Virus record (IMG/VR): IMGVR_UViG_3300030107_000200
Location: 1-22,091 of that record
Reading direction: 5' to 3' (one strand)
From: a virus
Length of the DNA: 22,091 nucleotides
Shown here: positions 1,266-19,850 of the stretch, piece by piece
How positions within the stretch are numbered: the first letter of the stretch is position 1
How the letters are laid out: the number at the start of each line of letters is the position of its first letter
Position numbers and translations under genes: made by a program
The notes under the pieces: generated by a model
The model's input: only the letters and a program-made list of their open reading frames with translations
What the model was told of the DNA's origin: nothing
Database searches by the model: none

Positions 1266-2537
1266 ATGGATATTAAAATACCTTACACCCCTAGAAAACA
1301 CCAAGCACATTTACATAAAGAAATATCTAAACATAGATGGTCGGTGCTAGTTTGCCATAGAAGGTTCGGCAAAACAGTATGTATGATTAATCACTTAATT
1401 AGGTCAGCACTATTGTCTAAAAATAAGAACCCAAGATATGCCTACATTTCGCCAACATTTAAACAAAGTAAGTCAATCGCTTGGGATTACATGAAACAGT
1501 TTACAGCAAAGATACCTTACACCAAGTTTAATGAAACAGAGTTAAGAGTAGATTTACCTAATGGTGCAAGAATAACTTTACTTGGATCAGAAAACTCCGA
1601 TGGGTTGAGGGGTATCTACCTAGATGGATGTGTAATTGATGAGTATGCAAATGTTAATGAAAAACTATTTCCTGAAATTATAAGACCAGCACTATCGGAT
1701 AGAAAAGGTTATTGCGTATTTATAGGTACGCCACAAGGAATGAACAATAACTTTTATGAATTATACCAGCACGCACAAGGAGCAGAAGATTGGTTTAATT
1801 ATAAAGCTAAAGCAAGTGATACAAAAATTGTAGATGAAGATGAGCTTGTCAAAGCAAAAGAAGTTATGGGAGAGAAAAAATATTTACAAGAGTTTGAGTG
1901 TGATTGGATAGCTAACATAGAAGGATCAATCTATAGCGATACGTTAGTAAAGATGGAAGATAAAAAACAATTAACAAGAGTACCCTACGATCCATCATTG
2001 CCTGTAAGTACATCTTGGGATTTAGGAGTATCAGATCATAGTTCTATTATATTTTATCAACAATTAGGTAGATCAATAAACATTATTGATTATCACGAAG
2101 AACGTGGTCAAGGATTACCGCACTATATTCAATTAATTAAAGATAAGGAATATGTCTATAAAGATCATTTTGCACCACATGATATAGAAGTAACTGATTT
2201 TAGTAATGGTAAGACCAGGAGAGAGGTCGCCTATCAATTAGGAATTAGATTTAAAGTCGTACCAAAAATACCATTAGAAGATGGTATACACGCAACCACA
2301 ATGACTTTACCTCGATGTTGGATTGATACAGACCATTGCAAAAAGTTAATAGATGCGTTAAGACATTACCATCGGAAGTATATAGATAAAAATCGAATGT
2401 TCCGAAGTAAACCTGTACACGATTGGTCATCTCATGCGTGTGATGCTATGAGATACTTGAGTGTAGGTTTACAAGAAATAAATACTAGACAAGCTGCACC
2501 ACAAAGTGTAGCAGATAACGAATATAGGATTATATAA
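1266..2537 (+). CDS. terL: terminase large subunit (DNA packaging ATPase/nuclease)
   Basis: This is the packaging motor that translocates phage DNA through the portal and cuts it into genome lengths. The ATPase half shows a Walker A-type HRRFGKT (residues 31-37), a Walker B VIDEYA (123-128) with catalytic Glu-126, and a coupling motif FIGTPQG (152-158). The nuclease half has the RNase H-like first acidic site in SWDLG (Asp-252) and the final HACDAMRY with Asp-393. At 423 residues it is shorter than T7 gp19 (about 586), fitting the compact terminases seen in many marine phages. Its place directly before the portal differs from T7, where gene 19 lies at the far right end. The ribosome binding site is weak, so coupling to the gene ending two bases upstream is likely. 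Confidence 0.95.
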   Translation: MDIKIPYTPRKHQAHLHKEISKHRWSVLVCHRRFGKTVCMINHLIRSALLSKNKNPRYAYISPTFKQSKSIAWDYMKQFTAKIPYTKFNETELRVDLPNGARITLLGSENSDGLRGIYLDGCVIDEYANVNEKLFPEIIRPALSDRKGYCVFIGTPQGMNNNFYELYQHAQGAEDWFNYKAKASDTKIVDEDELVKAKEVMGEKKYLQEFECDWIANIEGSIYSDTLVKMEDKKQLTRVPYDPSLPVSTSWDLGVSDHSSIIFYQQLGRSINIIDYHEERGQGLPHYIQLIKDKEYVYKDHFAPHDIEVTDFSNGKTRREVAYQLGIRFKVVPKIPLEDGIHATTMTLPRCWIDTDHCKKLIDALRHYHRKYIDKNRMFRSKPVHDWSSHACDAMRYLSVGLQEINTRQAAPQSVADNEYRII

Positions 2538-2538
2538 T

Positions 2539-2760
2539 ATGGGATCATTGTTTTCACCAAAAATGCCATCACTACCACCCGTTCAACCTTTGCCGACACC
2601 ACCATCAACTGAATTGTCTGCTGAAGAGAAAAAAAGAATTGCAGCGGAGCAAGCAGCGATAGAAAGAAAAAGAAAAGGTAGAAGATCAACTATCTTAACT
2701 GGACCATTAGGTATTGAGGAAGAAGCTGAAACAGAAAAGAAAACTTTACTAGGAGTATAA
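2539..2760 (+). CDS. small virion-module protein with KKTLLG tail, 73 aa
   Basis: The N-terminus is proline-rich (about residues 8-23). A charged alanine/lysine/arginine helix follows (about 27-48). The C-terminus reads GRRSTILTGPLGIEEE (about 47-62), then EKKTLLGV. The next gene shares this C-terminal block (GRSMTIMTGPKGIEEE...RRSLLGK), so the two are paralogues. I recall short proteins of many tailed phages ending in such a TIxTGPxG...KKTLLG block between terminase and portal. T7 gp7.3, a small virion protein, has a vaguely similar basic, low-complexity character. A role in head-tail joining or assembly is inferred from position only. Confidence 0.8.
   Translation: MGSLFSPKMPSLPPVQPLPTPPSTELSAEEKKRIAAEQAAIERKRKGRRSTILTGPLGIEEEAETEKKTLLGV
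2751..2755 (+). promoter_or_regulatory. Shine-Dalgarno formed by the upstream gene's conserved tail codons
   Basis: AGGAG lies six bases before the ATG at 2762. It is made from the Leu-Gly-Val codons (CTA GGA GTA) of the KKTLLGV tail of the preceding gene. The same arrangement recurs at 2989-2992 and 3165-3168. Confidence 0.7.
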
Positions 2761-2761
2761 T

Positions 2762-2998
2762 ATGGGAGGAAGTCCAGCAAGAGCGATTAGAAGAGTGATC
2801 AGTCCACCAAAACCCCCTGCACCTCCAACTCCTGCACCGACTACAGCAGAAGTTTCTCAAGCAACTGCAACTAGCATGGATGGATATGATTCAAGAAGAA
2901 CAAAAGCCAGAGGTAGATCAATGACGATTATGACAGGACCTAAAGGCATAGAAGAAGAAACATTAACATTAGGTAGAAGAAGTTTACTAGGAAAATAA
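2762..2998 (+). CDS. small virion-module protein with RRSLLG tail, 78 aa
   Basis: Paralogue of the preceding 73-aa gene. It has a basic start (ARAIRRVI), a Pro/Thr/Ala-rich segment (about residues 15-30), then RGRSMTIMTGPKGIEEE (about 50-66) and the tail GRRSLLGK. The Pro-rich linker followed by a conserved basic tail suggests a flexible tether with a terminal docking peptide. This is inference. It follows the previous gene by one base and overlaps the next ATG by one base. Its RBS is embedded in the upstream gene's end. Confidence 0.8.
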   Translation: MGGSPARAIRRVISPPKPPAPPTPAPTTAEVSQATATSMDGYDSRRTKARGRSMTIMTGPKGIEEETLTLGRRSLLGK

Positions 2999-3174
2999 TG
3001 GCAAGAAAAACTTTTAGACAATTAATAAAACCTGTAGCAAGAGTTGCCATAAGAGCAAGAAATAAAGCATATACTAAATCATATTCTAAAGGTAAAAGAA
3101 CCAAGGCAATAAAAAAATTTACTTTAAACTATCCAGATTTAACAATTAATAAAAAAACTTTATTAGGACAATAA
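2998..3174 (+). CDS. very short basic protein with KKTLLG tail, 58 aa
   Basis: The ATG at 2998-3000 overlaps the previous stop codon, and the frame runs 58 codons to TAA at 3172-3174, which overlaps the portal ATG. An SD (AGGA, 2989-2992) sits five bases upstream. The product starts MARKTFRQLIKPVARVAIRA, is very rich in Lys/Arg, and ends INKKTLLGQ, matching the tails of the two upstream genes. It lacks their TGPxGIEEE block. Exact fit between neighbours with one-base overlaps at both ends, good SD and the shared tail make it a real gene despite its size. Function unknown; the strong positive charge would allow DNA or RNA contact. Confidence 0.85.
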   Translation: MARKTFRQLIKPVARVAIRARNKAYTKSYSKGKRTKAIKKFTLNYPDLTINKKTLLGQ

Positions 3175-4802
3175 TGGCAAAAACAGATTTAACAAAAAAA
3201 TTATTATCACGTTTCGATAGACTAGCAGGTCAAAGACAAAACTGGGAAACGCATTGGCAAGAAGTAGCGGACTACATGATGCCAAGAAAATCAGACGTTA
3301 CAAAAAAAAGAAGTCGTGGCGATAAAAGAATGGAACTTATTTTTGATAGTTCCCCTTTACAATCTTTAGAATTATTAGCAGCATCATTACATGGTATGCT
3401 GACTAATCCGTCAACACCTTGGTTTGCATTAAGATTTAAAAATTTAGAAATTGATAATGAAGATGAAGCTAAACTTTGGTTAGAGTCTGCAACCGATGCA
3501 ATGTACACAGCATTTAACAGATCAAACTTTCAACAAGAAATATTTGAATTGTATCATGACCTTATTACCTTTGGTACAGCAGCAATGTTTATTGAAGAAG
3601 ATGATGAAGATTTTATAAAATTTTCTACAAGACACATTGACGAAGTTTATATTGCGGAAAATGATAAAGGTAGAATAGATACTATCTATAGAAAATTTAA
3701 ACTATCAGCACGAGCTATTGTACAAAAGTTTGGTGCTTCTGTATCACAAGATATTTTAGTTATGGAAAAGAAAGACCCATACAAAGAAATAGAAATTGTA
3801 CACGCAGTTTATCCAAGATCAGATTTTAATCCTAACAAAAAAGATAAAAAGAATATGCCATTTGAATCGGTATACATGGAATATAAAAATGGAAATGAAT
3901 TATCCGTATCAGGTTATAAAGAGTTTCCATTTGTTGTACCTAGATACTTAAAGGCTTCACATGAAATTTATGGAAGATCACCTGCAATGACAGCATTGCC
4001 AGATGTGAAGATGTTAAATGAAATGGCAAAGACAACAATTAAAGCTGCACAAAAACAAGTAGACCCACCTTTACTTGTACCTGATGATGGTTTCTTATTA
4101 CCAGTTAGAACTGTACCAGGTGGATTAAATTTTTACAGATCAGGTACGAGAGATAGAATTGAACCATTAAACATTGGTGCAAACAATCCTTTAGGATTAA
4201 ACATGGAGCAGCAAAGAAGAGAAAGTATTAGAGCTGTGTTCTATGTAAATCAACTCATGATGCAACAAGGACCACAAATGACAGCAACAGAAGTTATACA
4301 AAGAAACGAAGAGAAGATGAGATTACTTGGTCCTGTATTAGGTAGATTACAATCAGAATTACTAAAACCATTAATTGATAGAGTATTTAATATTCTATTA
4401 AGAAACAATCAATTACCTCAAGCACCTGAATTTTTATCAGGTCAGGATATAGAAATTGAATACGTTTCACCATTAGCAAAAGCACAGAAATCCACAGAGT
4501 TACAATCTATTATGAGAGCTATTGAAATTATGGGATCACTTGCTAATGTAGCTCCTGTATTTGATTATGTTAATTTTGATAATCTTGTTAAACATTTAGC
4601 TGATATAGTTGGTGTGCCACAAAAGATATTAAAATCACAAAATCAAGTTAATGCAGAACGACAACAAAAACAAACAGAACAACAGGAGCAAATGCAAATG
4701 CAACAATTACAACAGGTAGCAAAAGCTGGAGGAGATATAGCTCCACTAGCAAAAGCCTTACCTGAAGAAGCTAAAGCTGTTGCAAATGCTGATATAGAAT
4801 AA
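3174..4802 (+). CDS. portal protein (T7 gp8-like head-tail connector)
   Basis: This forms the dodecameric ring at one capsid vertex through which DNA enters and leaves. At 542 residues it matches T7 gp8 (about 536). The start has the family's pattern of helix, tryptophans and a YMMPRKS-type segment (residues 10-39), followed by DSSPLQSLELLAASLHGMLTNPSTPWFAL (about 59-87, key features SLHGML and PWF). A later GLNMEQQRRESIRAVFYVNQLM and MTATEVIQRNEEKMRLLGPVLGRLQSE-type helical region (about 342-395) is typical of the family's stem/crown. The last 40 residues are Gln/Ala-rich, as in a flexible C-terminal crown. It overlaps both neighbours by one base, so it is coupled in both directions. Confidence 0.93.
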   Translation: MAKTDLTKKLLSRFDRLAGQRQNWETHWQEVADYMMPRKSDVTKKRSRGDKRMELIFDSSPLQSLELLAASLHGMLTNPSTPWFALRFKNLEIDNEDEAKLWLESATDAMYTAFNRSNFQQEIFELYHDLITFGTAAMFIEEDDEDFIKFSTRHIDEVYIAENDKGRIDTIYRKFKLSARAIVQKFGASVSQDILVMEKKDPYKEIEIVHAVYPRSDFNPNKKDKKNMPFESVYMEYKNGNELSVSGYKEFPFVVPRYLKASHEIYGRSPAMTALPDVKMLNEMAKTTIKAAQKQVDPPLLVPDDGFLLPVRTVPGGLNFYRSGTRDRIEPLNIGANNPLGLNMEQQRRESIRAVFYVNQLMMQQGPQMTATEVIQRNEEKMRLLGPVLGRLQSELLKPLIDRVFNILLRNNQLPQAPEFLSGQDIEIEYVSPLAKAQKSTELQSIMRAIEIMGSLANVAPVFDYVNFDNLVKHLADIVGVPQKILKSQNQVNAERQQKQTEQQEQMQMQQLQQVAKAGGDIAPLAKALPEEAKAVANADIE

Positions 4803-19619: not shown

Positions 19620-19850
19620 ATGGCTAGAAAAAGAATATTAGTTAACCCTTTAAATCCAAATGGAATTGAAGTGGCATTTACAGCTGAAGAAGAAGCTCAA
19701 GCTGATACTGATGCAGCAAATGCTGTTACTAGAAGAGCAGCAGAAGCAGAAGCTAAAGTTGCATCAGATGCAAACAAGGCATCAGGGAAACAAAAATTAA
19801 AAAATCTTGGATTAAATGATGCCGAGATTAAATCTTTAATAGGAGTATAA
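19620..19850 (+). CDS. small helical protein, 76 aa (possible fibre-associated or chaperone-like)
   Basis: RBS AAGGAG lies close upstream. The product begins with a short beta segment mentioning its own framework (ILVNPLNPNGIEVAFTAEEEAQ, about residues 6-27), then a long Ala/Lys/Glu/Asp helix (about 28-58) and a conserved-looking end KQKLKNLGLNDAEIKSLIG (about 57-75). Short proteins with this layout (A-E-E-x-A-Q helix then L-G-L-x-x-x-E-I) lie among fibre genes in many marine phages; some are called fibre assembly factors. I cannot confirm that. The last codons (ATA GGA GTA) also form the next gene's Shine-Dalgarno. Confidence 0.75.
   Translation: MARKRILVNPLNPNGIEVAFTAEEEAQADTDAANAVTRRAAEAEAKVASDANKASGKQKLKNLGLNDAEIKSLIGV

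Follow-up and report, generated by a model that had tools for sequence, protein, structure and literature searches.

Few components of podophage virions are understood as poorly as the small proteins encoded ahead of the portal gene, and a locus at which three of them end in nearly the same way raises the question of what this common ending is for. The window, which is the whole stretch of DNA analysed here, comprises 22,091 nucleotides (a 22-kb virus record) and belongs to an HTVC010P-type pelagiphage, a virus of the ocean bacterium SAR11, with a portal protein 89% identical to that of HTVC034P and 88% identical to that of HTVC010P. The original prediction, made from the letters of the window, described three abutting ORFs of 73, 78 and 58 residues between terminase and portal, and this description was confirmed. 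All three genes start with ATG and lie on the plus strand between the gene for the terminase large subunit (terL; 1266..2537; PF03237, phrog_2), the upstream border of the cluster, and the gene for the portal or head-tail connector, its constant downstream neighbour (3174..4802; PF12236, E 2.8e-161). Their products end EKKTLLGV (gene 1, 2539..2760), GRRSLLGK (gene 2, 2762..2998) and NKKTLLGQ (gene 3, 2998..3174). Gene 1 starts one base past the terL stop and gene 2 one base past the gene 1 stop, while TAATG overlaps join the gene 3 start with the gene 2 stop and the portal start with the gene 3 stop. Searches for promoters and terminators gave no excess, and Rfam gave no match.

Genes 1 and 2 both match the profile of phrog_831 (E 1.4e-17 and E 2.4e-14) and are therefore paralogues, so that the tail on these two proteins is ordinary family conservation. 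The block TI-x-TGP-x-GIEEE, described earlier as common to both and lacking in gene 3, is present and absent just as stated and turned out to be the core motif of this family (GRRSTILTGPLGIEEE at 2677..2724 in the proline-rich gene 1, GRSMTIMTGPKGIEEE at 2912..2959 in gene 2). Together with the tail (KKTLLG at 2737..2754, RRSLLG at 2975..2992) it forms the most conserved block of our alignment A1. The family is annotated as being of unknown function and has epsilon15 gp3 among its members; the phiV10 homologue of this protein matches phrog_831 with E 2.4e-36 and is encoded next to the portal gene, on its upstream side. Homologues of gene 1 are present in isolated pelagiphages, and in the window, in phage isolates and in prophages members of phrog_831 are found immediately 5' of a PF12236 portal gene. 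Enterobacterial, Vibrio and prophage homologues at this place keep TLLG. The epsilon15 gp3 type thus resembles genes 1 and 2 in position, core motif and TLLG end, whereas pelagiphages differ from it by having two copies and additional passenger genes with the same tail; gene 3 is not a member of the family. In Baldr-type phages a few residues follow the tail core (KTVLGGGIK), and a free end right behind the motif is therefore not essential. Sequence and profile searches of the PDB returned nothing relevant, no entry matching the phrog_831 profile, and nothing on an LLG motif or on phrog_831 came up in searches of the literature.

How common the tail is was read from 256 sequences, mostly IMG/VR loci collected by portal queries, among which 195 complete terL-portal gaps contain two to six called genes each. 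At HTVC010P/HTVC028P-type loci an LLG-type tail ends 264 of 415 gap genes, as against one of 839 ORFs of at least 60 aa counted from the portal gene onward; among the latter, the strict form [KRST][TS]LLG was found in none and the relaxed form [LIV][LI]G in one. Such a difference is not due to chance. When the gap proteins were clustered by their bodies, leaving out the last ten residues, one large cluster emerged that corresponds to phrog_831 and is represented at 191 of 195 loci, besides numerous small clusters, and the tail recurs in five clusters outside phrog_831, namely C4, C8, C11 (which is gene 3), C16 and C19 (binomial P 2e-10). Counted as unique proteins outside the family, 19 of 129 carry it compared with 1 of 839 (Fisher P 1e-16); both P values are optimistic since the contigs are partly dependent, and it is the effect size that counts. 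Ten of 20 PF12236 portal genes located in assorted bacterial genomes are preceded by a small protein ending in [LIV]LG plus one residue, and four more by one ending in LG plus one residue. Judged by sequence, the tail signature at the portal locus is real, old and widespread, and what was unexpected is its spread to unrelated passenger genes of pelagiphages.

The passengers differ in how much they tell about the tail. Proteins of the C4 family (about 104 aa) carry it in 12 of 12 members at a median body identity of 40%, with LG invariant and changes in the tail core confined to the conservative exchanges I/L and S/T. Having diverged bodies and a tail kept in all twelve, C4 is, as far as sequence comparison goes, better evidence for a function of the tail than gene 3. 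The bodies of C4, gene 3, C16 and C19, taken without the tail, gave no match to the phrog_831 profile. C8 and C18 keep a TS..G core that resembles phrog_831, and C8 may be a remote member of that family. Modelled with AlphaFold, a C4 protein and gene 3 reached a mean pLDDT of 62 and 66, with tails of low confidence, and these models are too weak for fold searches. A further family, C1 (44 small proteins in the gaps of 52 loci), has a conserved end of its own, TKSSLTFG[EKV], which may be an anchor of another type. In HTVC010P a C1-family gene (MLEKIKKIF...; L081:2056-2258) sits between two phrog_831 genes; near its start it reads AAAAATT where relatives have AAAAAATT, and the gene, out of frame and unannotated, is either broken or affected by a sequencing error.

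Gene 3 encodes a basic protein of net charge +16 for which neither Pfam nor PHROG (up to E 1) offers a family, and a profile made from 295 gap members did not retrieve its body without the tail. As it matches no phrog_831 body, the tail (KKTLLG at 3151..3168) is the sole feature that it has in common with genes 1 and 2; the earlier statement that one tail is kept on otherwise dissimilar proteins therefore applies to gene 3 and not to the paralogous genes 1 and 2. The gene is rare. The phage collection contained no relative and a direct viral scan gave one contig only; altogether gene 3 was found in the window and in two other contigs, L011 and L046 (L256 being the same contig as L011). A lost tail or a broken frame in close relatives had been named as evidence against the original prediction, and both relatives have an intact frame and keep the tail, with T or S before LLG. 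A dN/dS of 0.32 to 0.79, calculated from few changes, is weak evidence for constraint. In other phages the slot of gene 3 is often taken by different small basic proteins without the tail (C3, C5, C7 and C9), and the tail is thus not required in this slot. That gene 3 might be a shortened C4 member was considered and is not supported, as a profile of the C4 body does not find it. The gene is bordered by an imperfect direct repeat of 59 nt and 73% identity made up of its two gene junctions (2963..3021, gene 2 end and gene 3 start; 3139..3197, gene 3 end and portal gene start; spacing 176); in L046 the corresponding repeat measures 73 nt at 74% identity and includes an identical stretch of 27 nt. 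Repeats of this kind are what one would expect if recombination at the junction had added a gene, and gene 3 is best described as an accessory gene; its tail may have a function or may have been inherited with the junction.

A counterpart of this arrangement is found in T7, in which genes 6.7, 7, 7.3 and 7.7 lie just 5' of the portal gene. In the cryo-EM structure twelve copies of gp6.7 are placed between portal barrel and core, with residues 2-15 on the barrel, while six copies of gp7.3 are anchored at the adaptor-nozzle junction (PMC11784390). The ordered part of gp7.3 is confined to its C-terminal loop (residues 84-98, beginning KKSL); this loop is held between nozzle subunits on two gp12 molecules, and K84/K85 are at the DNA end with the basic N-terminus around the DNA (PMC11784390). 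Virions of phiPsa17 contain both proteins (PMC4517105), a core stack like that of T7 is present in epsilon15 (PMC8954989), and in Vibrio phage Peru-2 orthologues of gp6.7 and gp7.3 could not be identified (PMC13320782). Like the products of the pelagiphage cluster, gp7.3 (PF11653, tail assembly protein) is small and basic, and its gene lies a short way upstream of that for the portal; the part that anchors it is a C-terminal segment, where the pelagiphage proteins have their tail. It differs in ending SSGGGINI and not LLGx, in being present as one copy and in the lack of a significant sequence match. For gp6.7 (PF17570, core protein), also encoded upstream of the portal gene, the likeness is at the other end of the protein, its N-terminus MCFSPKIKTPK, part of the segment on the T7 portal barrel, resembling the MGSLFSPKMPSLPP start. 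In Baldr-type loci (L083:1672-2109 and related) a putative acetyltransferase gene lies between two phrog_831 genes, which reproduces the T7 order 6.7-7-7.3; neither this gene nor T7 gene 7 has a Pfam match. In phiKMV the portal gene is preceded by genes for a GNAT protein and for a virion protein.

Whether likeness to T7 extends to common descent was addressed with profiles. A wide phrog_831 profile matches the protein whose gene immediately precedes that for the portal in the T7-like pelagiphage HTVC019P (E 3.8e-5) and ranks gp7.3 first of 338 scored T7 ORFs, at 10.1 bits and a database E of 0.1, a score reached by one of 2000 shuffles; the alignment covers the linker of gp7.3 and not clearly its tail. 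With hhalign no alignment to gp7.3 was obtained (probability 0.5%), PF11653 matched none of genes 1-3, a profile of the HTVC019P type did not find gp7.3, and when this profile was pooled with the wide one gp7.3 dropped to third place. Given the non-significant E value and these negative tests, homology of phrog_831 to gp7.3 is not claimed; the comparisons only suggest it. On the side of gp6.7, a mixed alignment gave an N-terminal hhalign probability of 70% over 24 proline-rich columns, a match that may reflect low complexity and the HTVC019P and P-SSP7 members in the alignment and is not relied on; genes 1-3 have no Pfam match to this family.

The shared position next to the portal gene, on its upstream side, and the analogy with T7 together suggest that the cluster probably works like gp6.7 and gp7.3. 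The reading which we favour, though tentatively and with somewhat less than even confidence, is that these genes encode minor virion proteins of the portal-tail channel and that the tail serves as their anchor. Genes 1 and 2 would encode mostly unstructured proteins, consisting of a proline-rich N-terminus, the core motif GRxSTILTGxxGV and the C-terminal KKTLLG. We infer that each protein is docked by its tail on a surface that stays constant in the assembly of portal, adaptor and nozzle, in the way in which the C-terminal loop of gp7.3 is held between nozzle subunits, and the basic segments would touch the DNA end. Pelagiphages would have added this anchor to further small passenger proteins such as the 104-aa family, gene 3 and others, probably through recombination at the junction that is repeated between the genes, and one site would thereby have received new bodies. 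A docking peptide as originally proposed fits the conservation of the tail at the protein level, its presence on several unrelated bodies and, by analogy, the gp7.3 loop; it fits less well with the rarity of gene 3, with slot proteins that lack the tail and with a pelagiphage tail that is itself part of a repeated junction containing a ribosome-binding site.

This last property could mean that the tail exists only as the Shine-Dalgarno sequence of the next gene, for translation coupling and without any function in the protein. In pelagiphages the codons for the second Leu and Gly (TTA/CTA GGA) do hold the AGGA of the following gene: CTA GGA in the tails of genes 1 and 2 serves genes 2 and 3, TTA GGA in that of gene 3 serves the portal gene, and TAGGA thus stands shortly before the next ATG in all three. 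Throughout the tails A is the last base of the second Leu codon in 98%, and GGA encodes Gly in 87%, compared with 41% elsewhere. However, the distant homologues retain TLLG by means of codons that do not form this site or are otherwise different (ACG CTG CTT GGT in phiV10, ACC CTG CTC GGG in Klebsiella phage BUCT711, ACG TTG CTA GGG in Vibrio phage 1.185, and ACC CTG CTG GGG or ACG CTC CTC GGC, among others, in prophages of 41-59% G+C), and this constancy in spite of different codons indicates that selection acts on the peptide. Moreover, 54 gap genes without the tail have an AGGA- or GGAG-type site near their stop yet no LLG end, and K, T/S and the first L of the tail are left unexplained. 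A purely ribosomal role is therefore highly unlikely and largely refuted by the distant codon variation, and it holds as an added constraint: the codon data argue that the tail is selected as a peptide, on which a further demand at the DNA level is imposed in pelagiphages. More weight, although still doubtful, can be given to the view that the tail on gene 3 and other passengers is a by-product of the DNA, in that genes recombined at the repeated junction carry the phrog_831 end without needing it. The direct repeats on both sides of gene 3 in the window and in L046 agree with this view, as do the tail-less proteins that make up most of the small basic proteins in its slot and the biased codons of the tail, in which Thr is nearly always ACT (36% elsewhere), Ser nearly always AGT (14% elsewhere) and Gly mostly GGA. 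The recurrence of the same codons on unrelated bodies does point to inheritance at the DNA level as well. Against a by-product speak the C4 proteins, all of which keep the tail over diverged bodies with only conservative core changes, and the two gene 3 relatives, in which it persists through a T/S change.

Two other accounts leave the tail a function or an ancestry of a different kind. All tail-bearing families could be one ancient family with bodies diverged beyond recognition; the TS..G core of C8 and C18, two apparent passengers that are probably remote phrog_831 members, is in line with this, but the C4, gene 3, C16 and C19 bodies escape the phrog_831 profile and the C4 profile misses gene 3, and we regard a single origin as quite improbable. 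About equally improbable is that the tail targets small proteins to the capsid, loading them into the head for injection, and does not anchor them in the channel. Precedents for such tags exist. The capsid-targeting sequence of T4 is a single short tag borne by a number of small internal proteins that are otherwise unrelated, and the cargo-loading peptide of encapsulins, whose shells have the common HK97 fold and bind C-terminal peptides, is a short C-terminal segment on unrelated proteins. The T4 and pelagiphage tags are alike in being attached to unrelated bodies, whereas that of T4 is N-terminal and cleaved and that of pelagiphages is C-terminal and seen at the gene level; with the encapsulin peptide the tail has a likeness of arrangement only. 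Variable passengers with a constant short tag, differing in number and identity among close relatives, would suit capsid targeting. The tail genes, however, adjoin the portal gene and not the capsid genes, and in T7 the analogous proteins are located at portal and nozzle (PMC11784390).

Should the tail indeed anchor minor proteins of the portal-tail channel, KKTLLG might even be a transferable C-terminal tag for incorporation into the virion: at a cassette site between terL and portal, small proteins with interchangeable bodies would gain it by recombination at a fixed junction, be mounted at the channel in this way and be passed into the SAR11 cell when infection begins; this extended version is unlikely. 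A tag of this kind would be a minimal signal by which proteins are built into podophage particles, and it would explain the swapping of passengers. The C-terminal signature combined with position yields a testable anchor hypothesis and finds candidates across phages of Pseudomonadota, including very abundant ocean phages. Under-reporting of such genes, which had also been suspected, was borne out in places, as in MW202510 (L088), where an unannotated ORF ending RKTLLGQ lies immediately before the portal gene at 2495. At another locus (L051) a gene for 202 aa, extending from 610 to 2 bases before the portal gene, is found between gene 2 and portal; its product contains LHEVRHKAF and ends QSRSLLNK. 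Just upstream of terL, HTVC034P has a Mom-like gene (L090:655-1122; PF25680, E 6e-7). Far from the portal, a gene for 76 aa among the tail-fibre genes of the window (19620-19850) ends DAEIKSLIGV with TAGGA before the next start, and it is probably unrelated to the tails of the portal locus.
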